This document shows positions 99 through 20,968 of a stretch of DNA of 23,322 nucleotides, piece by piece. This DNA is from a virus. Within the stretch, counting starts at the first letter, position 1, and each line of letters opens with the position of its first letter. The notes beneath the pieces are model-generated. The model worked only from the letters and a program-made list of their open reading frames with translations, ran no database searches and was not told the DNA's origin. The DNA lies in IMG/VR virus record IMGVR_UViG_3300028008_001404, positions 1-23,322 of that record, one strand, 5' to 3'. Made by a program: the position numbers and the translations under genes.

Positions 99-653
99 AT
101 GTTTTTAATCCACTTTTATATATTTTATTGGATAGTAGCCGCTATTGGACTCACAATAGGGTATCACAGATGCATATCACATAAAGATATATCTTTGCAT
201 CCAATATTAGAAACAATAACAATCTACTTAGGTACTATAGCTAGTGCGTGTTCACCGTTAAGTTGGGCAGGTGTTCATCGTATGCATCACGCATATGCTG
301 ATACAGAAAAAGACCCCCACAGCCCTAAATACAAAAAATGGTACGAGATACTATTCTCATCTTATAAAGTAAATCATATACCAAGAAAGTTTGTGAAGGA
401 CTTATACGATAATCCAAGAGTTATGTTTTTCCATAGATATAAAATACATGTTTTCATAATAACTTATGCTATAGCTTTTTATGTAAATCCAATCTTTCTT
501 ATGTATCTAGTATTATTGTTGCCAACATCATTCATATTCTATGGCTTATTAAATTTAGTAGGTCATGATGAAAATGGCGCTACAAACAAATGGTGGATAA
601 ATTTATTCGCCCCTTTCGAAGGTAATCATACAGAACATCATGCAAAGAAATAG
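99..653 (+). CDS. fatty acid desaturase-like membrane protein, short form
   Basis: 184 residues, hydrophobic, with the three histidine boxes of membrane di-iron acyl desaturases: HRCISH (23-28), HRMHH (60-64) and HTEHH (177-181). The family inserts double bonds into acyl chains using iron, oxygen and electrons from ferredoxin or cytochrome b5. The ATG at 99 is chosen because GAGGG at 89-93 is ideally spaced; a TTG at 87 would leave almost no leader from the late promoter. The protein stops three residues after the third box and lacks the usual C-terminal tail, so it is much shorter than typical delta-9 desaturases. All metal-ligand boxes remain, so activity is possible but unproven. Its end overlaps the next gene by 14 bases. 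It could alter host membrane fluidity during infection (inference). Confidence 0.85.
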   Translation: MFLIHFYIFYWIVAAIGLTIGYHRCISHKDISLHPILETITIYLGTIASACSPLSWAGVHRMHHAYADTEKDPHSPKYKKWYEILFSSYKVNHIPRKFVKDLYDNPRVMFFHRYKIHVFIITYAIAFYVNPIFLMYLVLLLPTSFIFYGLLNLVGHDENGATNKWWINLFAPFEGNHTEHHAKK

Positions 654-1209
654 TGATACACATTGGGTTAAAATGAACTTTAAGGTTCCTTGTTCTGATA
701 TAGAAAAGGAATACAAAGCAGTACGCAATTCTTTGGTTGTTCATAGACCCGAAGATGGTCATAAAGATTGGTTTGCTATGACTCTTTATGGAGTAGGAGC
801 AAATAGTACAAACAGCCATTGGGAATATGGACGTAAAGCTAAAAAAGATATAACTGATGTGGGAAAGCAATGCCCTAAAACAATGGAGTTTGTTAACTCG
901 TTACCATACGCTAGAATAGATGATGTGAGATACTTGGTAATTAAATCGGGTGGTTACATCGCTGAACATGTAGACGTTCCAGAGCATAATTGGCTAGACC
1001 CTCTTAACATATCGATTACATACCCAAAGGGAAGTAAGTTTGTTATGGATGGTGAAGACATACCATACCACTCAGGGGCTTCTTTTGTTCTTAATATACA
1101 TTACCCACATATGGTTAAGAACGAATCTAAAGAAGATAGACTGCATTTATTAATTCATGGAAAGAAAAAGAAAGAGTTTTGGGATGACATTGCTGAACTC
1201 AGATTGTAG
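640..1209 (+). CDS. aspartyl/asparaginyl hydroxylase-like 2OG-Fe(II) oxygenase
   Basis: 189 residues. The C-terminal half carries the jelly-roll signature of 2-oxoglutarate/Fe(II) dioxygenases: HVD (H110, D112) after a GGYIAEH strand, then H157 and R167 in the H-x9-R arrangement that binds iron and the 2OG carboxylate. The HMVKNESKEDRLHLLI context resembles aspartyl/asparaginyl beta-hydroxylases, which hydroxylate protein side chains. Substrate is unknown here. It is the first of a run of related oxygenases that includes the genes starting at 1681, 2477, 3420, 4639, 5066 and 5526. It overlaps the desaturase by 14 bases and has no strong ribosome site of its own, suggesting translational coupling. 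Confidence 0.85.
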   Translation: MQRNSDTHWVKMNFKVPCSDIEKEYKAVRNSLVVHRPEDGHKDWFAMTLYGVGANSTNSHWEYGRKAKKDITDVGKQCPKTMEFVNSLPYARIDDVRYLVIKSGGYIAEHVDVPEHNWLDPLNISITYPKGSKFVMDGEDIPYHSGASFVLNIHYPHMVKNESKEDRLHLLIHGKKKKEFWDDIAELRL

Positions 1210-1684
1210 CGTTACTAGCTTTTTTCCAGAAGATAGACCAGACATTATAAAGAAGTTATCGGAGACAACTTACAACCACGTTAACTACGACAATTTAGAT
1301 TGGTTTGAATTCGATTGCGTTTCTATATTACAAAATGGAGATGATATAGTAGGGTTTAGTTCTGTATGGCACAGACCAGAGTATTATAAAAAAGGTGAAG
1401 TTAGAATATTAAATCGCTATTGGGAAAACAACGAACTACGTCGTATCGGTAGGGAATTGGCAAGAAGCCACATCATTTCTATTGTTAAAGATCAATTAAG
1501 GTTTGCAAAAGAACTTGGTTATACATCAGCATTTATAAGCAGAGAGAAAAATCCAAGAATGTTGCGAGAGTTTATAAATAAAGTAGCAATAGCTACAGAT
1601 ACAATATGGAATATACATGACGAAAGAGTTTCAGTTTGTGACGGTCATGGGTGTTTACAATATAAAGGATACACGGAATTATGA
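1184..1684 (+). CDS. hypothetical protein, weakly GNAT acetyltransferase-like
   Basis: 166 residues from the ATG at 1184, preferred over the ATG at 1157 because an AAGAG-type ribosome site lies about seven bases before it and none precedes 1157. A strand resembling the central GNAT beta-sheet (DDIVGFSSVWHRPEYY) is followed by a charged stretch containing RRIGREL and a later segment (ELGYTSAFISREKNPR) like the acetyl-CoA-side half of GNAT enzymes. There is no clean Q/RxxGxG/A signature, so the family is tentative. It lacks the HxD oxygenase signature. It is wedged between two oxygenase genes, overlapping the first by 26 bases and the next by 4 (ATGA), so it is probably made in the same late programme. 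Confidence 0.7.
   Translation: MTLLNSDCSVTSFFPEDRPDIIKKLSETTYNHVNYDNLDWFEFDCVSILQNGDDIVGFSSVWHRPEYYKKGEVRILNRYWENNELRRIGRELARSHIISIVKDQLRFAKELGYTSAFISREKNPRMLREFINKVAIATDTIWNIHDERVSVCDGHGCLQYKGYTEL
1573..1580 (+). promoter_or_regulatory. possible internal T4-type late promoter
   Basis: Exact TATAAATA inside the GNAT-like gene, about 100 bases upstream of the oxygenase start at 1681. A transcript from about 1586 would have a 95-base leader. In such an AT-rich sequence one exact octamer can arise by chance, so this is a weak call. Confidence 0.3.
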
Positions 1685-2484
1685 AAACTAGATATGAGTT
1701 ACCACCATTTCAGAAGCTTGATGCACATTTTGATGTGAGCAAGATCATTGAGGTCGTGCGTAACATGCCAAGTGAAACCGATGATTTGAAAGAAAAAGAT
1801 GGCTACGGTGATTTGGTTGGTGGAAAAACAGCAAAACTACAAAAAGCTTTTGGCTTGAAGTTTGATACAATTGAAGACGCTTATCAGTTCTTACAGGACA
1901 ATGACGTAAAAGAGTCAGAGTTTCGCAATGGACTAGGTGGCAAGCGTATGGCTTGGGACTTTAGAAATTATGTAAAACCATTTGAAGACTACATTGTAGA
2001 AGATGGTAAAGGTAAATATGAGGTTAATGGTTCACCATATAAGCAGATTGCTTTGACCAAATACAACCCAGATGAAGAAGATCGTATCTATGAAAAGAAA
2101 ATACCTAAAAGTAGGCTTGATGAAAGACACTACAACTTAATGAAAGATTGGGTAAAAGGTACTTACTTAGAAGAAATACTTAAAACTTTTAAGGGTGAAG
2201 TTACACGAGCAAGAATTGCCATAATGGAGCCAGGTGCTTATGTTGCAGAGCATATAGACTATAATACAGACTATTCTATTCGTTTTCATATCCCAATCAC
2301 GACAAACGATGATTGTGGGTTTTATTGTATAGATAAAGATGGGAACAAAATAAATCAGACTATGGAACCAGGGTCGCTTTGGTTTCTAAATCAAGGTATG
2401 AGACATTCTGCTTGGAACAAAGGTACGACCACGCGATCACATATTATCATATCAGTAAATGGCCAGGAAGATTTACATGATTAA
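1681..2484 (+). CDS. 2OG-Fe(II) oxygenase, Asp/Asn hydroxylase-like
   Basis: 267 residues, the second largest oxygenase of the array. The C-terminal domain shows RARIAIMEPGAYVAEHID with the HxD iron ligands H191 and D193, then RFHIPI, the third ligand H242 in GMRHSAWN, and the 2OG-binding arginine R252 in TRSHIIISV, exactly ten residues later. The first 130 residues form a charged extension that I do not recognise; they may define the substrate. The family hydroxylates protein or small-molecule substrates. The ATG overlaps the preceding stop (ATGA), typical of coupled translation. It overlaps the next gene by 8 bases. Confidence 0.85.
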   Translation: MKTRYELPPFQKLDAHFDVSKIIEVVRNMPSETDDLKEKDGYGDLVGGKTAKLQKAFGLKFDTIEDAYQFLQDNDVKESEFRNGLGGKRMAWDFRNYVKPFEDYIVEDGKGKYEVNGSPYKQIALTKYNPDEEDRIYEKKIPKSRLDERHYNLMKDWVKGTYLEEILKTFKGEVTRARIAIMEPGAYVAEHIDYNTDYSIRFHIPITTNDDCGFYCIDKDGNKINQTMEPGSLWFLNQGMRHSAWNKGTTTRSHIIISVNGQEDLHD

Positions 2485-2986
2485 AACATGGACAAATGAC
2501 TCATTTATAGAAACTGATTATAAGGTTGATCCAGAGTTTTGGCACAATTATATGACTGGTGAATGGACTGACAGTAATAAATTATATTCAGAATATGTTA
2601 GCGATGCAACAGGCGGCAAAGAAATGAATAAGTTCTTTGTCCAAGAGATACACAATTTTGATAGACCACTTCTTAGGTTGATCAAAAAGATATGGAACAC
2701 ATTCGAAATAAGACCACAGGAATTTCGCTGTAACTTCTTTAGAGTATTAGAAGGTGGGGAGTTGCCAATTCATGTTGATGTAAAAAGTGAATGCTCAGTA
2801 TTGATACCTGTAACTGAAAATACTGGTGAATTGTATGTTGATGATGGGAACACACGAGACTCCATAGTATATGACACTATGACTGTACTCAACACAAAAA
2901 AACCACACGGTGTAAAATCACCAATAAAGGAACGTATCGTCTTTCATATGGGGATACACGACATTCCATTCGGAGAACTAAAATGA
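2477..2986 (+). CDS. 2OG-Fe(II) oxygenase-like protein
   Basis: 169 residues from the ATG at 2477, chosen over the ATG at 2459 because AGGAAG at 2465-2470 is well spaced for it. The core contains FFRVLEGGELPIHVD with H99 and D101 as HxD, a SVLIPVTENTGELYVDDGN strand pair, H144 in KPHGVKS and R153 nine residues later. All expected iron and 2OG ligands are therefore present. The N-terminal 80 residues are aromatic and polar, without a recognised domain. Substrate unknown. It overlaps the preceding gene by 8 bases and the next by 4. Confidence 0.82.
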   Translation: MIKTWTNDSFIETDYKVDPEFWHNYMTGEWTDSNKLYSEYVSDATGGKEMNKFFVQEIHNFDRPLLRLIKKIWNTFEIRPQEFRCNFFRVLEGGELPIHVDVKSECSVLIPVTENTGELYVDDGNTRDSIVYDTMTVLNTKKPHGVKSPIKERIVFHMGIHDIPFGELK

Positions 2987-3447
2987 TTAAAAAGTTAAAC
3001 TTACCACAGTTGACAATGCCTTCACCAGTCCACAACGCACTAGAAATTGAATATGACAGTTCAATTATTAACTACACAGCTTGGACTCTTACAGGTGAAA
3101 CCTCTGCTTTAGTAGAAGGACAGGTATTACAAGAGATTTTAGATAATTCACACATGCGCTATCAAGAGTCTGATGCAACTAAAAATGATAGGATTTTTAC
3201 AACAGAGTCACGTTGGAGAATTCTATATATCATCGATCCTGTAGGCACAGTATTACACGCTCACGATGCCGACGATAATGTCACATCTTCGATTACAGCC
3301 GCATCGGGAGAATGGTATCTTATTGACTCGCACGTTAAAAATTCCGTTTCTGGAATTACAGGTACACAAACTGCTATAACGATTAACCATCCAAATGATT
3401 TTACAGTGAGCGAACAAGCATGGATCGACAACCTTATTATAGAGTAA
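2983..3447 (+). CDS. degenerate 2OG-oxygenase-like protein
   Basis: 154 residues. The layout follows its neighbours (RWRILYIIDPVGTVLHAHDADD, later WYLIDSHVKNSVSG...TAITINH), suggesting the same jelly-roll fold, but the catalytic signature is altered. No clean HxD occurs: H92, H94, D95 and D97 are clustered. After the candidate third ligand H117, the position ten residues on is glycine (G127), not arginine. It may be inactive, a structural or sensing paralogue, or may bind metal differently. It is in the same overlapping operon (ATGA start) and overlaps the next gene by 28 bases. A small structural protein of unrelated fold is an alternative. Confidence 0.7.
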   Translation: MIKKLNLPQLTMPSPVHNALEIEYDSSIINYTAWTLTGETSALVEGQVLQEILDNSHMRYQESDATKNDRIFTTESRWRILYIIDPVGTVLHAHDADDNVTSSITAASGEWYLIDSHVKNSVSGITGTQTAITINHPNDFTVSEQAWIDNLIIE

Positions 3448-3914
3448 TTGATACAGTTGATCTCGAAAAGATCAAAAGTGAGTTATCTCTTATTCACCAT
3501 GAAACGACCTATGCACTTCAAGGCGAATGTGTTTCAGACAGCGTGTTTAAACACATAGTACCTGCAACCAATCAAACTAATGCTTGGGAAAGACAAACGA
3601 AAGTGACAGCCAAAGACTTGGTTGAGTTTCACTTTGCTTTGCCATATACTAACTCCTTGTTGGTAAAATACAATCTGGCATATAGTAGGGTTATGATATT
3701 AAATGGCAAAACGTGTTACACCTACCACAAAGACTTTACTAAAAGAGTACACATACCAATCGAAACTAACGATAATAACTTCTTTGTTATGAATGATGAA
3801 GTTTTTAGATTACCAGCAGATGGTAGTGTTTATGAAGTAGACACAACAAACCTCCATACATTTGTCAACGCTTCCACATCAACTCGAACTCATATTGTTG
3901 GTACTATGTTATGA
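3420..3914 (+). CDS. 2OG-Fe(II) oxygenase-like protein
   Basis: 164 residues. The signature is complete: RVMILNGKTCYTYHKD gives H103 and D105, then RVHIPIETNDNN, the third ligand H146 in NLHTFVNAS and R156 in TRTHIV exactly ten residues later. This closely parallels the gene at 1681, so the two are probably paralogues. The N-terminal 70 residues have no recognised domain. Its start has only a weak GAG upstream, and the 28-base overlap with the preceding gene suggests coupling. Substrate unknown. Confidence 0.8.
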   Translation: MDRQPYYRVIDTVDLEKIKSELSLIHHETTYALQGECVSDSVFKHIVPATNQTNAWERQTKVTAKDLVEFHFALPYTNSLLVKYNLAYSRVMILNGKTCYTYHKDFTKRVHIPIETNDNNFFVMNDEVFRLPADGSVYEVDTTNLHTFVNASTSTRTHIVGTML

Positions 3915-4642
3915 AAACAATATTGTCTGGCTGTAGTTGGTCTAATAGAAATTACTTCCCAAGAATGCACCCTAGCTATGACACATCATACCCAAAGTGG
4001 GATGAGTTACTACAAGATTATTACGATTGGGATATTGTTAATGTGTACGGAGACGCCCTTGGTAACGTAGAAATAATAAAAAAAGCAATAAAAGAAATAT
4101 ACACTCACAACACTGAAAGATGTATTATAGCTTTATCTCAGTGGTATAGGTTTTCTACCCCTGGTGATAATCGTTTTAACCCAAATACACATAAAGCTGT
4201 TGTCTGGGACGATGATGTATCTGAAGAACAAAAAGCTAGTTATCAAAAATGGGTAGATAGACACAACAATTACTTTGAGATTATGCCTTTTGATGATAAA
4301 ACTAAGAAAGCCCTCATAGAAGAAACTCTATTTCAATTATATATACTAATAGATTTATGCGCCTACAAAAATATAGAACTTGTCGTGTTTCAGATGATAA
4401 ACCCATTGATGGAAAACCAAGACGTTTATGATATGTTAAACTCTGATTATTTTAATGCAATACATAAAAGAAAGAGAAAGCATAATGTAAATATATTTGG
4501 TTGGCCTTTTCATTGGCAGTATGGTGGCACTTGTTTTGAAGAATTGCTTCAAGGAGATTGTATGATTAGTAAACGAGATAGACACCCTAACGCAAGAGGC
4601 CATCAAGAAATATTTAGAATATTTAAAGGATTTTACAAATGA
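3911..4642 (+). CDS. SGNH/GDSL hydrolase-like protein
   Basis: 243 residues. The N-terminus (ILSGCSWSNR) looks like block I of SGNH hydrolases, with S9 as nucleophile candidate in G-C-S, and the C-terminus has DRHPNARGHQEI, matching block V with D223 and H225 as the catalytic Asp-His pair. A conserved asparagine candidate lies near NVYGDALGN. SGNH enzymes cleave or transfer acyl and acetyl esters on lipids and polysaccharides. A role in trimming or esterifying surface glycans would fit the glycosyltransferases nearby, but that is inference. It starts with ATGA overlap to the preceding oxygenase and ends with a 4-base overlap to the next. Confidence 0.75.
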   Translation: MKTILSGCSWSNRNYFPRMHPSYDTSYPKWDELLQDYYDWDIVNVYGDALGNVEIIKKAIKEIYTHNTERCIIALSQWYRFSTPGDNRFNPNTHKAVVWDDDVSEEQKASYQKWVDRHNNYFEIMPFDDKTKKALIEETLFQLYILIDLCAYKNIELVVFQMINPLMENQDVYDMLNSDYFNAIHKRKRKHNVNIFGWPFHWQYGGTCFEELLQGDCMISKRDRHPNARGHQEIFRIFKGFYK

Positions 4643-5085
4643 ATTATTATGAATTGCCACGTTTTTTATCTGATGAACAACACAAAGCCTTTCTAACCAT
4701 ATCAGAGAACGTTAAAGAATGGACACCATACCAGTCTACCGTATCAGGTAATCGTATGGGTATGTATTATTTCCAAACAGGATTGACGTTTGCAGATCGT
4801 AATGTAGCTTTGATAAAGCTAGAACCTAACGATGTTATGGATTGGCATGTAGATGGTAAACGAAACACTGCGCTAAGCTACCCACTATCTGATAATTATG
4901 CACCTTGTTCTTTTGAAGATGCTGCTGGTTTTGACGGTGTGATGCTGTTAAACACTCAGGCTAGACATGCTGTTTTTAATAATGAACATATTCGGTATAG
5001 TATCAACATATCATTTCAAGAACCAATTGATGAAGCTATAGAAATTTTTAATGGACTGACTGAGTATGAATTTAAAACATCTTAA
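4639..5085 (+). CDS. 2OG-Fe(II) oxygenase-like protein
   Basis: 148 residues. VALIKLEPNDVMDWHVDGK supplies the HxD motif (H70, D72); H110 in TQARHAVFN and R119 in HIRYSINISF supply the third iron ligand and the 2OG-binding arginine, nine residues apart. The short N-terminus begins with a PRFLSDEQ segment, a common entry helix in phage prolyl-hydroxylase-like proteins. It overlaps the SGNH gene by 4 bases and the next gene by 20. Substrate unknown. Confidence 0.82.
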   Translation: MNYYELPRFLSDEQHKAFLTISENVKEWTPYQSTVSGNRMGMYYFQTGLTFADRNVALIKLEPNDVMDWHVDGKRNTALSYPLSDNYAPCSFEDAAGFDGVMLLNTQARHAVFNNEHIRYSINISFQEPIDEAIEIFNGLTEYEFKTS

Positions 5086-5545
5086 CTTCAAAATAGACAA
5101 GCCACGTTTTAGAGAAGTAGCAGAAACATGGCGAAACAACGGACGTTGGTATCAATGGAAACAGTTTGACCAAGTAGATAAGTGGTGGCAGACTTACCCA
5201 CAACAAGGCGAAGACCCCAACATAAATGAGGTTGCAGAGGCTTTAAATATCCAACAGTTTGATAATAGACCACGGTTTTATTGGTTGGAGACTAATAATG
5301 ATATACCTATACATTATGATGAGGATCACGTTACGTCTATACAAATTAACTTACTGGAGCAAACACCTGTTATAGGTATAGAAGGTGTAGGTGACGTACC
5401 TTACGAAGCTATGGTAATCAACAATGGTGATATAAGACATTGGGTTGACCCAGTACCATATGAAAGGTTGCAAATGAAATTTGTAATGAGAGAAACTTGG
5501 CAAGAAGTAATAGAGGCAATACCGAATGAATATATACAGAACTGA
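5066..5545 (+). CDS. 2OG-Fe(II) oxygenase-like protein
   Basis: 159 residues, with a tryptophan-rich N-terminus (several W between 22 and 41) that may form a binding surface. PRFYWLETNNDIPIHYDEDH gives H83 and D85, then H125 in DIRHWVDP and R134 in YERLQMKF nine residues on. The residue pattern is the same as in the gene at 4639, so these are likely neighbouring paralogues. It overlaps both neighbours by 20 bases. Substrate unknown. Confidence 0.82.
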   Translation: MNLKHLNFKIDKPRFREVAETWRNNGRWYQWKQFDQVDKWWQTYPQQGEDPNINEVAEALNIQQFDNRPRFYWLETNNDIPIHYDEDHVTSIQINLLEQTPVIGIEGVGDVPYEAMVINNGDIRHWVDPVPYERLQMKFVMRETWQEVIEAIPNEYIQN

Positions 5546-6398
5546 TAGACCTTTCTCTGATGAAGAACTTAGGACTATGGACATTATACACAACCCAAAC
5601 GTTAAGATGTTCAAAGATCAAAATGAACCTTCTTATGTAATTCATGATTTCATAACAGATGCAGAAAGAGAACAACTACTATGCGCTTGGGATTATCACT
5701 TTGATGCAAACGGTGAGATAATTAATGAACACATTTATAGAATAGTATATCCAATGCTTATCAAAGAAATATCAGACATTATCAGACCAAAAATATATGA
5801 AGAGTTTGGTGATGATACAATATTTTATTCAGATATAGCTGGTGATGATCCTATGAGCGTTGGTGATCAAATGTTCAAAGCAGTAAAACCTTATGGACTT
5901 CATACTGATGCGGTTACTCATTTAGATGGTTATAGACCTTACAAAGATATTATCATACCCCTAGAAATTAATGGTGGTGGTACTTACGTAACATTTAACC
6001 AAAGGTATCGTGGACACGCAACTATGTTTATGAATGGAAGAGACATAGCTTCTTTTGCCAACTACCATAACGTGATTAAGAATACAAATTACTCATATTA
6101 TGGCGTAGATGATATTGATATTAGCAATAGAGACGTGTATAAATTAAAAGAGATAATGCCTAAGCATATTCCTTTATCTGTGTACGATGGTTTAAGTATA
6201 GAGAACATATTCCCATGGGAACACTGCCACGCAATCGTACAGGATACGTCAGTTTTACATGCGCCAACTGGGTTTGAAGGTTCCAAGATAGGTCTAACAT
6301 TACATCTTATGAAGAAAGATGCTGATTATAATAATAGTATAAAGGGACATTATACCCCTTGGAGTCCACTCACTCGACCAGTAATCCAAAGTTCTTAG
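5526..6398 (+). CDS. 2OG-Fe(II) oxygenase-like protein, long form
   Basis: 290 residues, the largest and last of the oxygenase array. KPYGLHTDAVTH gives H126 and D128; the third ligand is H245 in SVLHAPTG. The expected arginine is replaced by lysine (K254 in EGSKIGLTLH), a substitution seen in some 2OG enzymes. Between them is an insert of about 80 residues, longer than in the other members. An N-terminal SYVIHDFITDAEREQL segment resembles the start of prolyl-hydroxylase-like domains. Ribosome site GAGG lies near 5513. The 3' end overlaps the opposite-strand glycosyltransferase gene by 29 bases, with no terminator between them. Confidence 0.82.
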   Translation: MNIYRTDRPFSDEELRTMDIIHNPNVKMFKDQNEPSYVIHDFITDAEREQLLCAWDYHFDANGEIINEHIYRIVYPMLIKEISDIIRPKIYEEFGDDTIFYSDIAGDDPMSVGDQMFKAVKPYGLHTDAVTHLDGYRPYKDIIIPLEINGGGTYVTFNQRYRGHATMFMNGRDIASFANYHNVIKNTNYSYYGVDDIDISNRDVYKLKEIMPKHIPLSVYDGLSIENIFPWEHCHAIVQDTSVLHAPTGFEGSKIGLTLHLMKKDADYNNSIKGHYTPWSPLTRPVIQSS

Positions 6399-8085
6399 AA
6401 ATCATATGAACCATCACAGTATTGTTCTCAAGTATTCTTGCTTTGAGTTCATACTTACTTATGTCATGTTCTCTTGTACCTTTGGTAAAAGCCTCAATCC
6501 TCTCACTCATGTGTTTGAGATGCCACGTTTCGCATAGTCTTTCAACAGACACGCCATTCATTGTAACTTTATATGACATAATTGTCTCATTGTCGTAGCC
6601 AAACGATTCTTGGACTTGTGGTGGGTAGATTGAGTCTTCTTTAAGCTCTTCCATCATAGTTAATACGTCATCTATGTCAGAAAAGTAGTCTAGTTTTTCC
6701 ATCACCTTTCTGCTTGCCATCATGATGCCCGTATTGAAAACATAATTATCGGGTTCAACATCTTCTTCAGATAACATGGCATGGCAATTCCAATACTTAG
6801 CTTCTGGTGATCTAAAGTCTTTGTCGTAGTTTTTAAGATACAAAGCATCCCAAAGCTTTACGCCAGAGTTTTCTGCATTAGTAGCATCACAACATAAACA
6901 ATGCTCAGCCTTGATCCAATCAAAAACATTTACTTCAAATTTATCAAACCAAACATCTAAGTCCACGTACAATACTAGATCATACCAATGCGTCATATAA
7001 TCTAAAAGATGCACCTTATATAGATTAATTACATCGTATTCTGATAGCTGTGGGAACCTAGCACGAAACTCTTCATATCTATTATCTCTACCAAAGTGAA
7101 TGTAAGTTGCTCTTTGGGCGTGTGCATATTCAAGATGGTTATCGTATAACTTGTCTTTATATTCAGCTAACCTCTCTTTAGTTCGCTTACTCTTGTTGAC
7201 AGGATCGTCTTTAGGTCCTCTTGGGTTGTCGAGACGTTCATCAGGTATTTCGATGTAAATAGAATATATTAGCTTTGTCTTGTCTTGAAAAAACGTGCTG
7301 AACTTCTTATTAACGAAATGTGCAATTTCGATATTATCCCAATCCAATGGCTGTGGCTTCTCTTTGATAATCTTATGCCATCTTTCGTCCATAATCTCAT
7401 ACGGAATATCTGTACTTTCCATAATATATGAGAAAACGCTTTCATTGTTTGGGTAGTAATACATTCTAAGAAATTTATATTCGTCCGAATCTACCCCAAG
7501 CAAACGCATGGTGTTTATTCTTTCCATAATACTAGGTAGACGTTCGATAAGCTTAATCTGCTTAATATGTTCAGACTTAGCAATCATTATACCAGTATTC
7601 ATTACGTGATTTCCACCACCACCCAAAAGGTCTTTTGTGATATGGTACTTTAACGTTGGAGAACGGTTTCCTATATTCTCGAACTTAACGCCTTCAATGT
7701 CTTTGCATGTTACTTCGTCGGTTTGTACTTGAATGTGAATACCTTTGCTCAAATCTAATTCGTCAAACACATTCTTTTCTGTATTAAAAATAACGTCCAT
7801 ATCTACGTACATTACTTCATCGTATTCTTCAGCTAACTCTGCCATAATATGGTGTTTATATATGTTAGCCGTTGTGAACTCTAAATCAAGATTAACATCA
7901 AAGTCTTTCATTGTGTTATGATAAAATTTAAACTCGACATTAATCAAACTATTAGCGTATTCTTCTTTGTTTGAAATTAACCTATCAAAGTATTCGTTGA
8001 CAGACTCAGTAGCAAAATAGTTTGCACTCCACTGATCTTGTTCTTTTTCAATATCATCGTAGGTTGTAAATATAACTCTCTTCAT
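6370..8085 (-). CDS. tandem two-domain GT-A glycosyltransferase
   Basis: 571 residues from the ATG at 8085, which overlaps the preceding stop (ATGA); upstream in-frame codons belong to the methyltransferase gene. Two GT-A modules follow each other. Module 1 has YVDMDV (D95, D97), then MNTGIMIA, an NESVFSYIM helix and IAHFVNKKF. Module 2 has YVDLDV (D375, D377), FNTGIMMA, NETIMSYK and MVHMISKNF. The DxD motifs bind the metal and nucleotide sugar. The matching motif order shows internal duplication. Such enzymes could add two different sugars, or build a repeating disaccharide on DNA, a virion protein or host surface; the acceptor is unknown. It is the last gene of the minus-strand module and its end overlaps the plus-strand oxygenase by 29 bases. 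Confidence 0.85.
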   Translation of the reverse strand: MKRVIFTTYDDIEKEQDQWSANYFATESVNEYFDRLISNKEEYANSLINVEFKFYHNTMKDFDVNLDLEFTTANIYKHHIMAELAEEYDEVMYVDMDVIFNTEKNVFDELDLSKGIHIQVQTDEVTCKDIEGVKFENIGNRSPTLKYHITKDLLGGGGNHVMNTGIMIAKSEHIKQIKLIERLPSIMERINTMRLLGVDSDEYKFLRMYYYPNNESVFSYIMESTDIPYEIMDERWHKIIKEKPQPLDWDNIEIAHFVNKKFSTFFQDKTKLIYSIYIEIPDERLDNPRGPKDDPVNKSKRTKERLAEYKDKLYDNHLEYAHAQRATYIHFGRDNRYEEFRARFPQLSEYDVINLYKVHLLDYMTHWYDLVLYVDLDVWFDKFEVNVFDWIKAEHCLCCDATNAENSGVKLWDALYLKNYDKDFRSPEAKYWNCHAMLSEEDVEPDNYVFNTGIMMASRKVMEKLDYFSDIDDVLTMMEELKEDSIYPPQVQESFGYDNETIMSYKVTMNGVSVERLCETWHLKHMSERIEAFTKGTREHDISKYELKARILENNTVMVHMISKNFGLLVE

Positions 8086-8747
8086 ACGCCTATAACCATA
8101 TAACGTGTGCATTCTTCATTAACTTGCATTTCACCTTTCCACATAACAACAGCCAAGTCTAATGACTCGACAAACTCATCTAAACTATTTTGCGTATTAA
8201 TGTGACTTTGGATAGAATGATAATTATTGCTTTGAAAACAAATCATAGTCTCTCTTGTCTTAGCGCCAAGGATTAAACGTATATCATCTGGTTCCATATG
8301 CTCACAACTTGTATTGATAATAAGTTGATACGCATCAGCCCTAGTAAAGAAATAGTCTAAAGCATCGTCAGTAATTGAATGATTATTTTTATAGTCATCA
8401 TTACCATATTTTAGTATATCTCCATAACGCTCACACATTGGGTCTGAGTCAACATTCCAAATATTTATTTTCTTGTCTATCTTTTGGCGAAGTAGCATAC
8501 CATTCAAACCATACCAACTGCCAAGAATAATAATATCCTGTAGTGGACACCATTTAAACTGATCATCAGTAAGGAAAGGTACTAGGGTATCAACAAGCCA
8601 TTGCTTGCCTTTTATCTGTGCATCATTGACAGAGTTAATAATATCATAGCTTCTGTATAAATCTATGTCTTTATTATACTTAGATTCGTTGTAAATGTCA
8701 CCTAGTGTTCGAAGTGCATTTTCATAAATTGTTTCTAGGTAGCTCAT
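8082..8747 (-). CDS. class I SAM-dependent methyltransferase-like protein
   Basis: 221 residues. A Rossmann-like core is visible: DIIILGSWYGLNGMLL (about 71-86) serves as the glycine-rich motif I, INIWNVDSDP (95-103) as the acidic end of strand 2 that binds the SAM ribose, and LIINTSCEHM (142-151) as motif IV. This set is familiar in marine T4-like phages, but the acceptor is not known. No DNA target-recognition domain is seen, so methylation of a sugar or other small acceptor is as likely as nucleic acid methylation. Its start lies within the end of the preceding gene (26-base overlap) and its stop overlaps the next start (ATGA). Confidence 0.78.
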   Translation of the reverse strand: MSYLETIYENALRTLGDIYNESKYNKDIDLYRSYDIINSVNDAQIKGKQWLVDTLVPFLTDDQFKWCPLQDIIILGSWYGLNGMLLRQKIDKKINIWNVDSDPMCERYGDILKYGNDDYKNNHSITDDALDYFFTRADAYQLIINTSCEHMEPDDIRLILGAKTRETMICFQSNNYHSIQSHINTQNSLDEFVESLDLAVVMWKGEMQVNEECTRYMVIGV

Positions 8748-9327
8748 ATTTCATTCCATTATACATATCAATTGGTGCATCTCTATATTCATTAGCAACG
8801 CTGTTCACAAGCCCATGATCGAAAGTATTAAACTCCAATCCTTCGTGGACTAAAAATCTGTCGATGCCTTTATACTTACGCATGAAGTAATCTTTATTAG
8901 ACATAAAGTGATCCCATATGTGGGTTTGCTCACCAGCAGTCCATGTGATTACTGAACTATTTATATGAACATCATAAGCATGTGGAGCCATGTAGAGATC
9001 GTCTTTCCAATAGTCTTTGAGTATAGTCAAACCATCCCACTTTAAAAAGGAACTTGGGTCTTCTTTAATATCCATGTCAAGATCAAAGAATAGACACTTA
9101 CCTTTTACTGGAAAGTCTGCGCTAAACATTGCTAGTTTATTCCACCAAAACCTTAAACTAGGTTTCTTAAAACAGGGAATGACTTCTACTTCAACACCGA
9201 TTCTATCTTCTGTGTAGCAAAAATACTGTGTCGTGGGAAAAAACTCTTTTAATTTATCCCTCAATCTATTTACATGTTCAGCACTATACTTATCGCCGTG
9301 CTTTACGAATATTATATTGTCTGCCAT
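8722..9327 (-). CDS. single-domain GT-A glycosyltransferase-like protein
   Basis: 201 residues. LRFWWNKLAMFSA is followed by CLFFDLDMDI, an extended DxDxD motif (D82, D84, D86) matching the metal/nucleotide-sugar site of GT-A enzymes. A late TFDHGLVNSVANEYRD segment fits the acceptor side. No membrane segment. It overlaps the preceding radical SAM gene by 16 bases and the methyltransferase by 26, so it belongs to the same transcript. Sugar and acceptor are unknown. Only the DxD region resembles the tandem enzyme encoded downstream at 6370-8085. Confidence 0.78.
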   Translation of the reverse strand: MADNIIFVKHGDKYSAEHVNRLRDKLKEFFPTTQYFCYTEDRIGVEVEVIPCFKKPSLRFWWNKLAMFSADFPVKGKCLFFDLDMDIKEDPSSFLKWDGLTILKDYWKDDLYMAPHAYDVHINSSVITWTAGEQTHIWDHFMSNKDYFMRKYKGIDRFLVHEGLEFNTFDHGLVNSVANEYRDAPIDMYNGMKYELPRNNL

Positions 9328-10379
9328 TCAAACCCTCTCACTTTATTCATTATGTTTATTTTTCTGTAAAGCTCATCATATAGTTTTTGGTTAAATTCTG
9401 ATACCAACCCAAAGCCCACTGTGTCCAACTCATCTTGTGTTCTAGTATTTAAATAATTCATTTCGTGTGGGTGGAATAGAAGATTATAACTCTTTAAACC
9501 GTTCTTTCCGATCTTAACAGTTGGTAAATTAGAATAGAAATCATTTATTTCATTTACATCTAATATATTAAAATAGGATATTGTAGGTATTACCTTTGGC
9601 ACAACACCTACTTCACCGTGCAATCTTTCAATCATATCAAGAGTTTTTGTGAAAGATGTACCTCTTATCCATTCATATTTTCTACCAATGTGATCTAAAC
9701 TTGCAACCATTTCTATCTTTTTAAATTTCTTAAGTACGTCCATAAAACGTTTTGAAATCAAAGAACAATTTGATGTGAACCAAACAGTACATTCTGGATT
9801 TACTTCTGCAAGCCTTTCTAAAATCTTTGCGTTACGCATATCGGCAAATGGTTCCCCACCTTTGATGTGCAATACATGAAGGTTAGGTAACAACTCTATA
9901 ATCTTTTCAACGTCACTATCGCTTAGGCGCATATCAGGTTGTTTATGGTTGCCAAACAAATGATCTATTGTAGCCCACTTACTACTAAAGTAGCTTGAAC
10001 ACATAACACATGTTTGGTTGCACGTATTGCTTGTTGTGAACTCTAAGTAGCTTACTGTGCCAGTTTCATATTTCACATGCTCTGGATTAAGCCATTCAAA
10101 TACATCAGCATGAGTGTTATCTCCTTGCCGAATTCTTTCAGCACAGTTACGACAAGCATCTGTACCTTCAATGCCATTTTTCTCAAGTGATTTACGTATG
10201 CTCATATTAAAATCTGAGTACGGAAATTCATCAATTTCATTATTAGTGCTTACGTGATAATCGCTTTTATCCGTCTTTATATTTCGAAATAGCTCTGTAT
10301 TGGAAATCATGCAACATGGCTTCAAGTAACCTTGTGGGTCAATAACTACAGCGTGATCAGGCCATCTACATTTGCTCAT
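9312..10379 (-). CDS. radical SAM protein (third of three)
   Basis: 355 residues. C120-x3-C124-x2-C127 in SNTCNQTCVMCSS binds the [4Fe-4S] cluster that cleaves S-adenosylmethionine, and HIKGGEPF (171-178) is the GGE motif that contacts SAM methionine. Extra cysteines lie before the core: C22-C23 in GYLKPCC and C76-x2-C79 in DACRNC, so an auxiliary iron-sulfur site placed N-terminally is plausible, unlike classic C-terminal SPASM proteins. It resembles the protein at 11644-12831 (shared TTSN-C-NQ-C core, SSKW, KGGEPFAD), so they are paralogues. The start ATG overlaps the previous stop (ATGA). The substrate is unknown; no RiPP precursor gene is evident nearby. Confidence 0.85.
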   Translation of the reverse strand: MSKCRWPDHAVVIDPQGYLKPCCMISNTELFRNIKTDKSDYHVSTNNEIDEFPYSDFNMSIRKSLEKNGIEGTDACRNCAERIRQGDNTHADVFEWLNPEHVKYETGTVSYLEFTTSNTCNQTCVMCSSYFSSKWATIDHLFGNHKQPDMRLSDSDVEKIIELLPNLHVLHIKGGEPFADMRNAKILERLAEVNPECTVWFTSNCSLISKRFMDVLKKFKKIEMVASLDHIGRKYEWIRGTSFTKTLDMIERLHGEVGVVPKVIPTISYFNILDVNEINDFYSNLPTVKIGKNGLKSYNLLFHPHEMNYLNTRTQDELDTVGFGLVSEFNQKLYDELYRKINIMNKVRGFEWQTI

Positions 10380-11647
10380 TTTAATCTCTCAATGTATTGA
10401 TGATACATTCTTGCATTTCTCCTACCTATATTTTTGTCTTCGCAAGGTGTTATGTCTGCGTTAAGTAAAAATTCTCTCAGATCAGATAGATACTCTTTAG
10501 TTTCTGCTTCGACAGCCCAAGGTTCTATGTCTTTGGGCGTTGATGTTCCACCCATTGGTGATAGTATATGATAAGAAAAGGTTAATAGTTTTGAATTACA
10601 AAAGGATAGAATATCTGGTAAGGTATAAACGTTATCTTTACTAACAACAAAAGAACACCCAACGTTTGCTACACCGTAAGCTTGCAATTCTTCTATGTGT
10701 TTTAAAACTTTACTTAAGTCACCGTTTCTTCTCAAGTCTTTGTATATTTCTGGGTCGATAGAATCTAACGATACTGTGAATGTTGTGTTTGGTCTTTGCG
10801 CGAGTTTCCTTGCGTAACCATTTAGAATACTGCCATTCGTTGTTATTTGTATCTTTAAATTCTTAGGATTTTCTTCTTCCACCATTTTTATTATTTTATG
10901 AACTATTGCTTGCGCGAACGGTTCACCACCAGTAAAATTAAGTTTGTCTACTTCATGTATGATGTCTCTTAGTGATTCAATAAACGCATCAGCCACTTCT
11001 GGATCATCGTATATACTTTCGAATCTGCCCATAATGTGAGGGTTTATGTCATCCATAAATGCCTTATATTCTGGAAACTCTAAGCCTTCTGGTATCTTGC
11101 GACCTAAAGTAGATTGTACTTGTTCTTTTAGAAGTCTAGGCATATTTTTACCCATATCCAACATGTGCTGAGATGAGTGGTAAGGACTACAGAATTTACA
11201 TTTATAGTTGCAGGTGTTTGATAGCTCAAGCTCAATTTCTTTTGGAACCGCATGATTTAAATCTCTATCACCACCAACCCAATCAAAGTCTAAGCTACTA
11301 GGTGGTTTATCTTTATCGCATTGCTCTTTACAGTATCTACACCAATCATGTAAGTCACCAGACAAAGAAGCATCACGCACTTCTTCAAAGCCTATGTCAT
11401 TCTGCCAAATATCCCTAAGACTTTTTCCAGGTTCCCATCTAGCTCTATATTTGTTTTTATCTAATTCAAATGGCGTTGTGTCTTCGTATTCTCTTTCCGA
11501 TCTTGCAATAAAAGGACATATTTTAAGCTCACCTTTTTTATTGATGTGGATGGTCTGAAAAGCCGCCCAACAACTCACATTTCTTTCTGCCTTCGTGAAA
11601 GTTTCTTCTTCTCTGCGGTGTTTATTAATTATATCAACGTACTTCAT
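10376..11647 (-). CDS. radical SAM protein (second of three)
   Basis: 423 residues. The cluster motif is C146-x3-C150-x2-C153 (SNTCNYKCKFCSP), with FTGGEPF at 238-244 and a later TTNGSILNG strand typical of radical SAM barrels. N-terminal cysteines C26, C44, C103, C106 and C110 could hold an auxiliary cluster. An insert of about 80 residues between the cluster motif and the GGE motif is larger than in the two flanking paralogues, so it probably has a different substrate. ATGA overlaps join it to both neighbours. Reaction unknown; peptide, sugar or nucleotide modification are all possible. Confidence 0.85.
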   Translation of the reverse strand: MKYVDIINKHRREEETFTKAERNVSCWAAFQTIHINKKGELKICPFIARSEREYEDTTPFELDKNKYRARWEPGKSLRDIWQNDIGFEEVRDASLSGDLHDWCRYCKEQCDKDKPPSSLDFDWVGGDRDLNHAVPKEIELELSNTCNYKCKFCSPYHSSQHMLDMGKNMPRLLKEQVQSTLGRKIPEGLEFPEYKAFMDDINPHIMGRFESIYDDPEVADAFIESLRDIIHEVDKLNFTGGEPFAQAIVHKIIKMVEEENPKNLKIQITTNGSILNGYARKLAQRPNTTFTVSLDSIDPEIYKDLRRNGDLSKVLKHIEELQAYGVANVGCSFVVSKDNVYTLPDILSFCNSKLLTFSYHILSPMGGTSTPKDIEPWAVEAETKEYLSDLREFLLNADITPCEDKNIGRRNARMYHQYIERLK

Positions 11648-12831
11648 CTATAATCCTCTAAGTATGGTGCTAACTCATATATATCTTCATTGTTTTCACG
11701 AGCGACTAAACAAAAGTCAATCCATTGTATCATTCGTTCTTGTATTAGTTTAATATCGTCATCACCCTGTGCCACGCTCAACACGTTATTCATGCCAGAT
11801 AAGTGTAGGTTATCTGTTGTATAATAAGTGTCTGACTTTTTATCCCAATCCTTTAAGTAATTAAATAGCTTGTCTCTGCCTTCTTCTATGTGGTGTTCGT
11901 CTAGGTAACATGGGCTACAGTATTTAGGGAATGTAACAAGGTTCGCCATACTAATTCTATCCACACCATCAATATCTTTCCAATATTCAATAAGTTCTGG
12001 TAAATGCATCCAATTATATACAGATACTGTTGATACGATAACAACTTTACGACCAGAGTGTTCGTGGTATCTCTTAATGTTGTTTACTGTTTTCTTAAAG
12101 TTACCACCGCGTATCCAATCGTACATTTCGTGTACGCCATCAATACTTGCTTGAATATGTACTTCATCTATCTGATGTAATATTTCAATAACAGTATTAG
12201 TCACGAGTTGCATGTTCGTGCATATCTCTACCCTACAGCTAGGATTAGTCTCAGCCAACTTCTTTAATATCTTGATGTTGTTGGGATCAGCGAAAGGTTC
12301 GCCACCCTTGATAGTTAGATGTTGTAGATTAGGAACTATGCCAAGAACTTTATCAACATCAGCCTTAGTCATTTTATACATTTCAGTATGGAACTTATGG
12401 TTCTCATTACGCCATTTCAGTCCAGACTCAACTGCCATCTTTTCATATGGTGACCACTTAGAAGAATATTTGCCAGAACAAGATACACACATTTGATTGC
12501 ATATGTTGCTTGTAGTAATTTCAAGAAACCTAATAGGAATAACATCAGATGCTAAATCTTCTTTATATGTAGGGAAGTTAAATCTGTTGTATGAATCAAA
12601 CCTAGCAATTCGACCTGCATCCCAATGTCTCCAACATACATCACATTGTTTTGGAAACGACTTTTCTTTGAAGTCAGAGCGAAGCTTCTCATAGACTTCA
12701 CCATTAAAGAACTCAGTGAGGTTGTCTACATCTTTGATGTGTGAAAGCGCTACGTTGTCACCTGCACAACATATAACCATTTCACCAATAGGATTAATCG
12801 TAATCCCTGTTTCGGGAACCATACATTTCAT
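11644..12831 (-). CDS. radical SAM protein (first of three)
   Basis: 395 residues from the ATG at 12831. This start is preferred over ATG 12846 and TTG 12873 because an AAAGAG-type ribosome site precedes it and the N-terminus (KCMVPETGITINPIGEMVICC) then aligns with that of the paralogue at 9312-10379. C111-x3-C115-x2-C118 (NICNQMCVSCSG) is the SAM-cleaving cluster site and KGGEPF spans 175-180. N-terminal C21-C22 and C63-x2-C66 may bind an extra cluster. It is the first gene of the six-gene minus-strand module and is divergent from the kinase-like gene; only 44 bases separate the two starts. I could not identify a convincing promoter for it. Confidence 0.84.
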   Translation of the reverse strand: MKCMVPETGITINPIGEMVICCAGDNVALSHIKDVDNLTEFFNGEVYEKLRSDFKEKSFPKQCDVCWRHWDAGRIARFDSYNRFNFPTYKEDLASDVIPIRFLEITTSNICNQMCVSCSGKYSSKWSPYEKMAVESGLKWRNENHKFHTEMYKMTKADVDKVLGIVPNLQHLTIKGGEPFADPNNIKILKKLAETNPSCRVEICTNMQLVTNTVIEILHQIDEVHIQASIDGVHEMYDWIRGGNFKKTVNNIKRYHEHSGRKVVIVSTVSVYNWMHLPELIEYWKDIDGVDRISMANLVTFPKYCSPCYLDEHHIEEGRDKLFNYLKDWDKKSDTYYTTDNLHLSGMNNVLSVAQGDDDIKLIQERMIQWIDFCLVARENNEDIYELAPYLEDYR

Positions 12832-12875: not shown

Positions 12876-13598
12876 GTGTTAACAGGTTATGAAGTCATAT
12901 TTGATGAACACCTGCGTGTTGGCTCTGCGCTAGGACGTAATGTGTTTCGTGTTGAAAAAGATGGTGTAACTTATTGTTACAAAGACCAAGCTTATCACGA
13001 ATACACAGCCCTTTTACATATCAACCACGAGTCTTTGCCAGAAATAATAGATTATAACAATGGTAGACTTATAAAAGAATGGGTTGAAGGCGAACCACTC
13101 GACTGTGTTCATATCACACCAACTAAAGAACTTATAAGAAAATTCACAAAATACACTAAAGAATTATTTGATATTGTTCATAGCAGTAATTATATTTTAT
13201 TAGACTATACTCTTAAAAACATAGCTTATAACAAAGGTAAGTTTAGATTTTTTGATTTTGATTGCTCAGTACCTTTTGATGTAGTTCTCAAACCTTTGTT
13301 GGGATCACGTAAGCATGAAAATAGACCATACGAAAGTTTACTAGCTAACGTACACTACACAGATGATTATTTTGCGTATGCCTGTGTAATATATACTTGT
13401 ATGACAGGTAGTGTACCATATTCAAATAATCAGAGAGATGTAGAGTTAGCCAAGAAAAATTATGAAACAACTTACAAAGATATAGTACCAGAATTTACGA
13501 CAAAACTTTTAGAAACAGGATTAAACAAAAAAGAAGTTGATTTTATCATAACTTGTCTTAACCCTATTCGAGATGGTAGACCCACAAGTTTTCTATAA
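12876..13598 (+). CDS. protein kinase-like fold protein
   Basis: 240 residues, GTG start with AGGAG five bases upstream. The order of motifs follows protein kinases: a loop GSALGRNVF (16-24) like the glycine-rich loop, K36 in TYCYKDQ as the ATP lysine, E42 as the helix C glutamate, D110-x4-N115 in LLDYTLKNI as the catalytic loop, and D127 in FFDFD as the DFG aspartate. DDYFAYACVIYTCMTGSVPY (about 163-182) resembles the helix F region of Ser/Thr kinases. The usual HRD is LLD, as in some lipopolysaccharide or small-molecule kinases. It may phosphorylate a host or virion protein or a surface sugar; no substrate is evident. Its 3' end overlaps the opposite virion-type gene by 6 bases. Confidence 0.75.
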   Translation: MLTGYEVIFDEHLRVGSALGRNVFRVEKDGVTYCYKDQAYHEYTALLHINHESLPEIIDYNNGRLIKEWVEGEPLDCVHITPTKELIRKFTKYTKELFDIVHSSNYILLDYTLKNIAYNKGKFRFFDFDCSVPFDVVLKPLLGSRKHENRPYESLLANVHYTDDYFAYACVIYTCMTGSVPYSNNQRDVELAKKNYETTYKDIVPEFTTKLLETGLNKKEVDFIITCLNPIRDGRPTSFL

Positions 13599-14171
13599 AA
13601 GATCGTTGTAAATCGCCATTGCTGATGTGATACGAGTTGACTTACGTATAGAAGACTTGATTGATTTGTCGGCTTCTTTAACCAAGTCTTGTTCTAATGC
13701 CCAAAGCTTAAACTTAAACAGTTCTTCTTTACTTTCGTTATTATCACGAATAAAGTCATACACTGCATGATCAACTTTGTTTGTTTTGACTTTAACGTCT
13801 TGGTCAAGACTTAATAATTGATTTTCTTTATCTTGTGTCGCTTGGTCTAGCTCAGCAGTTTGCTTTTCAAGAATTTGTTTGCGCTCCATAAGAAAACGCA
13901 TTCCCAACATTTCTTCTGCCAATGCTTGTGCTTCTGCATTAACCATTTCGCCAAACTGTTTTGCGTGTACTCTTTTGTATTCAGAAGTTCCATCTAAAAG
14001 TTTTTCAAGGTCATAGCCTTCTTCAACTAAAGCTTGGTAATCTCCATTATCACCCACTTCGACCATGTAATTGATTTTTTCACCGTTAGGATTGGTGTAC
14101 ACAACTTCGATTAAACTGTAATCTTCATTTATGTAATATGCCGTATTGATGCTACCGCTAAATTCTGCCAT
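13593..14171 (-). CDS. putative virion-associated coiled-coil protein
   Basis: 192 residues. The first 50 form a beta-rich segment (SGSINTAYYINEDYSLIEVV...NPNGEKINYMVEV). Residues about 90-140 are a long charged helix with heptad-like spacing (MERKQILEKQTAELDQATQD), likely a coiled coil. The C-terminus is basic and serine-rich. It sits last in a three-gene minus-strand set behind a late promoter, directly after a virion-type protein, and has a ribosome site AAGGA. A tail-fibre or baseplate accessory protein or fibre chaperone would fit; I do not recognise a named family. Confidence 0.7.
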   Translation of the reverse strand: MAEFSGSINTAYYINEDYSLIEVVYTNPNGEKINYMVEVGDNGDYQALVEEGYDLEKLLDGTSEYKRVHAKQFGEMVNAEAQALAEEMLGMRFLMERKQILEKQTAELDQATQDKENQLLSLDQDVKVKTNKVDHAVYDFIRDNNESKEELFKFKLWALEQDLVKEADKSIKSSIRKSTRITSAMAIYNDLL

Positions 14172-14181
14172 AATATATTCC

Positions 14182-15183
14182 TTAAGTTGCTGTTACTGTA
14201 GTTCTTAATGTGTGAGATTGGTTCGTTGTTGGAGTACCATTTGGAAACTCTTGTGTACGATAATCAGATGAACTTACAAATCTTTGAGTATATCCAGAAG
14301 CTGACGAACCAGACAATCTCGTGTCAGCCATCACAGTACCCATTGTATTACCAGAACCATTTACGTTATATGTTATTTTTGTATTAAAACCTGCAATGCC
14401 ACTTCCATTAACTGCCATGTTTTGTATCATGGGTCCGAATATATCATCAAACATAGATAGAGGCATTTCTCTTATATCGCCATTTGTATAATCCCAATAT
14501 ACTGGCATAAAGCTAGGCGTGTTAGCTGCTGGTGTAATTTTATGTACGTAATAGTTATTCACAGTTGTAGGTTGGTCTAAAGTTTCACCTATTCCACCAG
14601 AAGTGTAGAGGGAAGCATTTGCTCTTGTGTCAACAAACACAGGAGTTGATGATACTAAAGTCGAGCCAGATACACTATTTGATGTAGATATGTGATAAGC
14701 TCCACCAGCAGCGGCTGATACGGTTCCACTTGTAATAAGCGCAATTGCTGGTTGGATGAAGTATTCAACACAGTCTGCCAAATCCATGGATTGCAGATCG
14801 CCAGCAGTTGGGGTCATAAGAATTGGGAATCGGTGTAGGTTAGTATCAGTAGGTAATGCAGGTGGTGAAGCACTTTCTGTTGTGTTAATTCTGTCATAAG
14901 TACCACCTAAGATTGATGATATGTTAGGCGTGTTTGCAGAAGACGCAAAACCACCATCTGCGGCTGTACGTGTTTCCATAGCACCAGCTATCATACGATT
15001 GTCAGTAATACTAGCTAAATTGCCGCCTGTAGAAACAACGTTAATGTTTACAGTGGTATTAAGAGAATATAGATAAGCAATTCTTTGTAGAACCTGACCT
15101 TCATAGGGATCAAAGGCTGGGTTTGGCATGTCAAGACCAACACCTGCTCCAGTTAAATCACCTTGTAATATCCAACCAGCCAT
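14182..15183 (-). CDS. putative virion structural protein
   Basis: 333 residues, rich in Ser, Thr, Gly, Ala and Asn, with few charged residues and no signal peptide. The composition and the N-terminus (DPYEGQVLQRIAYLYSLNT) are typical of phage virion or fibre-associated proteins. Its start overlaps the preceding stop by one base (TAATG), and the downstream coiled-coil gene begins 10 bases after its stop, so the three form one late transcript. There is no enzymatic motif. Exact position in the particle is unknown. Confidence 0.7.
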   Translation of the reverse strand: MAGWILQGDLTGAGVGLDMPNPAFDPYEGQVLQRIAYLYSLNTTVNINVVSTGGNLASITDNRMIAGAMETRTAADGGFASSANTPNISSILGGTYDRINTTESASPPALPTDTNLHRFPILMTPTAGDLQSMDLADCVEYFIQPAIALITSGTVSAAAGGAYHISTSNSVSGSTLVSSTPVFVDTRANASLYTSGGIGETLDQPTTVNNYYVHKITPAANTPSFMPVYWDYTNGDIREMPLSMFDDIFGPMIQNMAVNGSGIAGFNTKITYNVNGSGNTMGTVMADTRLSGSSASGYTQRFVSSSDYRTQEFPNGTPTTNQSHTLRTTVTAT

Positions 15184-20156: not shown

Positions 20157-20968
20157 AGTTTGTTTTCACAACATGTTTACTATTAATACTTTCTGGCTGT
20201 GCGACAGAAAAAAGTCTTGAAGTTTTAAGTCAAATAAACAAATCACCTATCAATCAACCTAGTCCTATTCAAGGTAGGTTAGAAGCAGTTCCAGCCTTAG
20301 ATGGCGAACTGATACCAATTGCTTTATACAACTTTAACGACATGACTGGGCAAAGAAAACCTGGCGATGGTGTTGCCAACTTATCTAGTGCGGTTACTCA
20401 GGGTAGTGCGGCATGGGTAATACAAGCATTGCAAGATGTGGGTAATAGAGGTTGGTTTAACGTAGTTGAGCGTGTTGGCATGGACAACTTGATTAAAGAA
20501 AGACAGTTAATTAGAAACACACGAGAAATATATAAAGATAAAAATGATGAAGAAGCAGAGCCTTTAAAACCTCTAATATTTGCAGGGTTAATTTTAGAAG
20601 GTGGTATTGTTGGTTATGACAGTAACACAGCCGTTGGTGGTGTTGGTGTTAGATTTATGGGATTAGGTGCTTCAACAGAATATAGAATAGACACAGTAAC
20701 TGTTGTCATGCGTCTAGTAAGCGTATCTTCTGGTAAAGTGTTAATTAGTATTGCTACTGAAAAGACAGTGGCGAGTTATCGATCTGGGGCTGACGTCTTT
20801 AAGTTTTTAGACTTAGGCACTAAATCTTTGGAAATTGAGAATGGGTATTCAGTGAATGAACCTGTAAACTATGCCGTAAGGGCGGCGATTGAACAGGGGA
20901 TTATAGAATTAGTATACGAAGGTATAGACAAAGACTTATGGAAATTTAAAAAGAAAGAAGCAAATTAA
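20153..20968 (+). CDS. csgG: CsgG curli secretion pore lipoprotein
   Basis: 271 residues from the ATG at 20153; the ribosome site TAGG and ATGA overlap with the membrane peptide support it. LLLILSGC (9-16) is a lipobox with C16 as lipidated residue. The mature protein follows E. coli CsgG (277 residues) through NFNDMTGQ, SSAV, ERVGMDNLIKERQLIR, GYDSNTAVGGVGVRFMGLGA, ADVFKFLD and the GIDKDLW ending. CsgG forms a nonameric outer-membrane channel that exports unfolded curlin. The constriction loop differs: E. coli KPYPASNFSTAV (Y51, N55, F56) is KPGDGVANLSSAV here, with the tyrosine lost, asparagine kept, phenylalanine replaced by leucine and one residue inserted. Downstream are its likely substrates. 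Confidence 0.93.
   Translation: MKFVFTTCLLLILSGCATEKSLEVLSQINKSPINQPSPIQGRLEAVPALDGELIPIALYNFNDMTGQRKPGDGVANLSSAVTQGSAAWVIQALQDVGNRGWFNVVERVGMDNLIKERQLIRNTREIYKDKNDEEAEPLKPLIFAGLILEGGIVGYDSNTAVGGVGVRFMGLGASTEYRIDTVTVVMRLVSVSSGKVLISIATEKTVASYRSGADVFKFLDLGTKSLEIENGYSVNEPVNYAVRAAIEQGIIELVYEGIDKDLWKFKKKEAN

Follow-up and report, generated by a model that had tools for sequence, protein, structure and literature searches.

A conserved glycosyltransferase-methyltransferase block with exchangeable radical SAM genes accompanies a predicted tail-appendage protein in marine T4-like phages

The window (the whole stretch of DNA analysed here) is a 23,322-base IMG/VR virus record, and the contig is a fragment. 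A FecR-domain protein encoded at 21.7-22.8 kb shares 42-45% identity with a curli-cluster protein of Pelagibacter phage HTVC008M and Methylophilales phage Melnitz, which places the window in that group, as part of a T4-like marine myovirus, a phage of bacteria. Megablast of the whole window against phages gave no DNA-level match in any phage record.

Six genes, for two glycosyltransferases, a methyltransferase and three radical SAM proteins, lie on the minus strand with intact ORFs and no internal stops (Table 1). The tight overlaps described in the initial annotation were reproduced, with 4 bases (ATGA) at rSAM1/rSAM2 and rSAM2/rSAM3, 16 bases at rSAM3/GTs and 26 at GTs/MT. The exception is MT/GT8t, which overlap by 31 bases as called and by 4 (ATGA) if GT8t starts at codon 10 (8085), probably its true start judging from the L009 orthologue. 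The long ORFs, and a gene order conserved in distant relatives, rule out chance. A kinase-like gene on the opposite strand sits between S192 and rSAM1 and parts the S333-S192 pair from the six genes here; it has the same position in locus L007, is absent from L008, L009 and L012, and is probably a passenger.

Table 1 Features of the block and its upstream partners in the window.
Gene	Description	Position	Strand	Basis
GT8t	Two fused GT8-type glycosyltransferase domains	6370..8112	-	PF01501 29.5 bits, cut-off 24.3
MT	Class I SAM-dependent methyltransferase-like	8082..8747	-	AlphaFold model (pLDDT 94) and Foldseek
GTs	Probable small glycosyltransferase	8722..9327	-	phrog_1962 E 2.3e-11; conserved FDLDxDI (DxD)
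rSAM3	N-terminal-twitch radical SAM protein, exchangeable	9312..10379	-	PF04055 41.9 bits; NF033640 149.4 bits
rSAM2	N-terminal-twitch radical SAM protein, exchangeable	10376..11647	-	PF04055 70.1 bits; NF033640 128.8 bits
rSAM1	N-terminal-twitch radical SAM protein	11644..12831	-	NF033640 210.2 bits; PF13186 27.9 bits
Kinase-like gene		12876..13598	+	PF00069 34.8 bits
S192	Partner of S333	13593..14171	-	Constant co-occurrence with S333; no family match
S333	Predicted tail-appendage protein, three tandem repeats	14182..15183	-	hhalign repeats; tail-region neighbours in relatives

GT8t scored above the PF01501 cut-off, and its two halves, 28% identical over 222 amino acids (E 7e-15), each have a DxD motif (VDMDV and VDLDV); GT8 occurs as separate genes in L027, L035 and L047. 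GTs matched the glycosyltransferase family phrog_1962 and no Pfam family, with FDLD conserved in the alignment. The methyltransferase call made earlier for MT is backed by fold, though not by any Pfam or PHROG profile: the PDB matches of its AlphaFold model in Foldseek were methyltransferases (best E 1e-7, 734 with E ≤ 0.001), pointing to a class I SAM-dependent fold with predicted SAM binding, and its glycine motif is GxWYG rather than the usual GxGxG. PHROG and Pfam scans of the S333, S192, MT and GTs alignments returned no informative family, and no strongly hydrophobic segment was found in any block enzyme.

All three radical SAM proteins are assigned by sequence to the radical SAM superfamily, with the CxxxCxxC motif and PF04055 scores above the cut-off of 29.5 bits (53.8 bits for rSAM1). 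The best NCBIfam model for each was NF033640 (N_Twi_rSAM, cut-off 170 bits). The family assignment suggested as a check in the initial annotation thus has a common answer at the level of best model, but only rSAM1 exceeds the cut-off and rSAM2 and rSAM3 fall below it, so the three appear to belong to or near this family. Its name states no function, so membership gives no reaction. The cysteines ahead of the cluster motif follow the pattern C-x12-G-x4-C ... CxxC, as in the family. In 32 rSAM1 orthologues C3, C21, C22, C63, C66 and C111/C115/C118 are invariant, and C199, C305 and C374 likewise. The extra N-terminal cysteines noticed at the outset are therefore explained as a known SPASM/twitch trait of NF033640 and not as an oddity of this phage. 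PF13186 (SPASM) matched residues 17-81 of the 409-residue rSAM1 ORF, ahead of the radical SAM domain, in agreement with the earlier remark that the usual C-terminal SPASM domain is missing. Calling two of the proteins close paralogues was generous: rSAM1 and rSAM3 are related but only 32-33% identical, and rSAM2 is 24% identical to rSAM1. As a viral query rSAM2 retrieved a single relative, and a genome-contig scan for rSAM1, a narrow pattern scan, gave only two weak matches, both in bacterial MAGs, which offered no informative bacterial context.

Radical SAM proteins of the SPASM type are characteristic of RiPP biosynthesis, and weak similarity to several maturase models would fit the production of a RiPP-like peptide. 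The N-terminal placement of SPASM in rSAM1 differs from that of C-terminal-SPASM peptide maturases, however, and the block has no peptidase or exporter. No RiPP precursor had been visible in the initial annotation, and none fits: neighbouring block genes are in nearly all cases separated by ≤30 bases, too tight for a precursor ORF. A RiPP locus is largely refuted, and we regard this reading as highly improbable.

Relatives were retrieved with separate anchors (MT, S333 and rSAM1/rSAM3), all ORFs were called mechanically and typed with profiles built in this analysis, and loci were deduplicated at 90-95% protein identity. Each search contributed at most its best 80 related loci, with divergent blocks undersampled, and the contigs compared are fragments. 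In the 40 deduplicated MT-anchored loci listed, GTs was immediately upstream of MT in every case and GT8 immediately downstream in 38; S333 or S192 was within 8 kb in 39, and any radical SAM gene was present in 27. The S333-anchored set was chosen independently of the enzymes, and among its 35 listed loci S192 and GTs were downstream in every case (35/35 each); MT (29/35), GT8 (23/35), a radical SAM gene (18/35) and a carbamoyltransferase (5/35) were also present. An NAD-dependent sugar epimerase gene stood directly behind S333 in 14 of these 35, and not one of them lacked a glycosyltransferase. Across the deduplicated S333 loci listed, S192 accompanied S333 in 62/62, and the whole GTs-MT-GT8 trio was found in 40 of the 72 listed loci anchored on rSAM1/rSAM3.

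The radical SAM genes behave differently from these partners. They number 0 to 5 per block, and roughly half to two thirds of blocks have at least one. The near relatives L007, L009 and L011 share S333, S192, rSAM1 and the trio, but their second radical SAM gene is another one and rSAM3 is missing; L203 and L240 have the block with no radical SAM gene. The anchored counts, together with these swaps and losses, indicate that the constant unit is S333-S192-GTs-MT-GT8 (15183-13593 in the window plus the trio), with the radical SAM genes as exchangeable extras. Within this lineage rSAM1 is the steady one, and rSAM2 and rSAM3 the exchangeable ones. The six-gene module first proposed was thus not upheld, since close relatives have other genes in place of rSAM2 and rSAM3 or lack them, and the constant partners S333-S192 lie beyond it; the genes do co-occur, but as a five-gene core with exchangeable radical SAM genes and not as a fixed set of six.

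In most relatives S333 and S192 immediately precede the enzyme genes, and all are closely packed in a single operon. Median gaps, from counts that were not deduplicated, are 11 bases for S333/S192, -1 for S192/GTs and 5 for S192/rSAM. Across 15 long records, 33 of 41 radical SAM genes lay no more than 10 kb from MT, where length alone would predict 23%, and in the 7 of these records not picked via radical SAM the figure was 7 of 10 against 25% expected; clustered genes are non-independent, which makes the P values of both comparisons optimistic. Radical SAM genes are also found far from S333 (G008, G009 and G010), and, as they are absent from a third to half of blocks as well, they may have other substrates. 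The 330-kb virus record of L077 (G009) has 16 radical SAM matches, and S333 was not detected in it.

S333 consists of three tandem repeats of ~110 residues (hhalign E about 1e-9), and close to the C-terminus the motif DYRxQEFP is conserved. Its confident model had no fold match by Foldseek in PDB or BFVD, and S192 had no family match. Ser and Thr make up 22.5% of S333 on average, compared with 13.3% over all ORFs. In relatives S333 adjoins VrlC, gp8 and fibre-like genes, a position in the tail module suggesting that it is a virion appendage of the host-recognition region; S192 is possibly an assembly or chaperone protein. Radical SAM enzymes with auxiliary clusters in SPASM/twitch domains often act on peptides, and the operon couples the radical SAM genes to S333-S192. 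The enzymes might therefore modify side chains or backbone of S333, S192 or another phage protein, with the glycosyltransferases glycosylating the same protein. We consider this unlikely, as the S333 and S192 alignments have no invariant cysteine for thioether chemistry and the accessory enzymes nearby in relatives are sugar enzymes.

The block was found in two genomic settings. VrlC stands at most 5 genes upstream of S333 in 56 distinct loci, and downstream in this setting are fibre-like genes and, further on, a T4 neck protein; in 27 other loci the cl5 gene is so placed, which goes with the curli cluster in the window and in several relatives. The block holds together in both, also where GTs-MT-GT8 is inverted relative to S333. 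The host-recognition cluster (HRC) of pelagimyophages is described, in the excerpts of that study used here, as the region between VrlC and the neck gene gp14, holding GT8 genes and radical SAM cassettes (PMC7029224). The presence of glycosyltransferases and radical SAM cassettes here is already published, and VrlC upstream with the neck protein downstream fits the definition. The phages are of the same group, and many relatives of the block, adjacent to VrlC, sit in the HRC. The S333-S192-GTs-MT-GT8 unit, in contrast, is not described in those excerpts, and in the window, a fragment, it adjoins curli genes with no VrlC seen.

The same linkage bears on modification of DNA. The initial annotation had envisaged a pathway to a modified sugar, peptide or base, and phage glycosyltransferases that modify DNA exist (PMC12619734). 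Here the block is linked to tail-region and not to nucleotide genes, and no base-modifying synthase was recognised in the window, which is part of an incomplete genome. Nothing found favours a DNA base, and its hypermodification seems very unlikely.

The sugar part of that proposal is supported, as judged from the glycosyltransferase core and from sugar-nucleotide genes in relatives. The only S333 homologue found in cultured phages is that of pelagiphage Mosig EXVC030M (Mosig_00097, QOI69061.1), which grows on Pelagibacter ubique HTCC1062 and has a homologous block: S333-epimerase-S192 adjoins genes for GTs, GT8, MT, a carbamoyltransferase (also seen in other relatives), a radical SAM protein and a DegT sugar aminotransferase. 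Orthologues of rSAM1 with 60-61% identity to that of the window also occur in the gp23-UvsW region. Their neighbours there include genes for an NAD-dependent sugar epimerase, a UDP-glucose/GDP-mannose dehydrogenase and an A-type Fe-S carrier, a gene neighbourhood that favours a sugar substrate for rSAM1 but falls short of proof. In L036-L045, which look like one lineage, rSAM1 orthologues are between UvsW and the A-type Fe-S carrier, with epimerase and UDP-glucose dehydrogenase-like genes nearby. An A-type Fe-S carrier has been reported from T4-like environmental viral genomes, in which radical SAM genes number as many as 12 (PMC5332604). The shared feature is the carrier next to rSAM1 orthologues; neither a glycan block nor a substrate is proposed in the excerpts of that report used here.

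Our preferred reading, held tentatively and a little short of even confidence, is that the block builds and tailors a small glycan for which S333 is the most likely acceptor, so that a virion appendage would be glycosylated. GTs and the GT8 domains would transfer sugars, MT would add a methyl group, and the N-terminal-twitch radical SAM proteins would act on the sugar in at least one SAM-radical step, e.g. dehydrogenation, deoxygenation or epimerisation. In this lineage rSAM1 would provide the steady step and swaps of the others would vary the product, which would be placed on S333, a Ser/Thr-rich protein of three repeats. Gene content, the family or fold of the enzymes, operon structure and conserved linkage are observed, while the presence of S333 in the virion, its part as acceptor, the action of the radical SAM proteins on sugar and the individual reactions are inferred. 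Two observations count against S333 as the acceptor: the fibre-like cl0 group is similarly rich in Ser/Thr (22.2%), and the distance correlation between S333 and GTs with VrlC removed is a modest 0.36, compatible with a direct relation without being strong evidence for one.

The main rival acceptor would be a glycan of the host surface. The same enzymes might remodel LPS core or O-chain during infection and stop superinfection, the tail linkage reflecting co-adaptation of receptor binding and alteration. Host LPS modification is the published reading of GT8 genes in the pelagimyophage HRC, according to the excerpts available (PMC7029224), and sugar-nucleotide, carbamoyltransferase and aminotransferase genes are nearby. 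On the other hand, the block has no membrane-anchored or lipid-carrier enzyme, and the S333-S192/GTs linkage, near absolute in both settings, goes beyond the needs of a general LPS function. We rate remodelling of the host surface as possible but doubtful.

Glycosylation of S333 would have a likeness in mycobacteriophages, which have glycans on their own particles, on capsid and tail tube (Freeman et al. 2023, as cited in the excerpts of PMC10568470 and PMC12619734). The present case differs in that the candidate acceptor is a predicted appendage protein, radical SAM proteins are added, and the virion glycan is a prediction from gene content. Literature searches for radical SAM proteins with tail fibres or phage glycans found no functional work, and, to our knowledge, no substrate has been assigned to the radical SAM genes that are frequent in ocean phages. 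A constant partner set, with S333 always beside glycosyltransferases, and exchangeable radical SAM genes narrow the substrate question to one acceptor and one chemistry. The adjacency of the enzyme genes to the predicted appendage pair, repeated in dozens of related viral contigs, suggests that an unusual modified sugar is put on the virus particle itself or on the surface of the host. More speculatively, and with considerable doubt, marine T4-like phages may diversify the glycan on S333, taken as a previously unrecognised tail-appendage protein, through exchangeable radical SAM enzymes, varying the virion surface by radical chemistry.

Two further gene groups were noted in the window. A run of short overlapping plus-strand genes at 640-6398, convergent with the block, includes several that resemble 2OG-Fe(II)/aspartyl hydroxylases (PF05118 match at 3420-3914) and, by eye, a GNAT-like and an SGNH-like protein; homologues of this run recur near the block in the curli-type setting. 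The plus-strand genes at 20968-21687 and 22753-23322 encode proteins that have curlin-type repeats and begin with signal-like sequences, and they adjoin CsgF/CsgG homologues, in contrast to excerpts of earlier reports in which CsgA/CsgB are missing from such phages (PMC7029224, PMC9004378).
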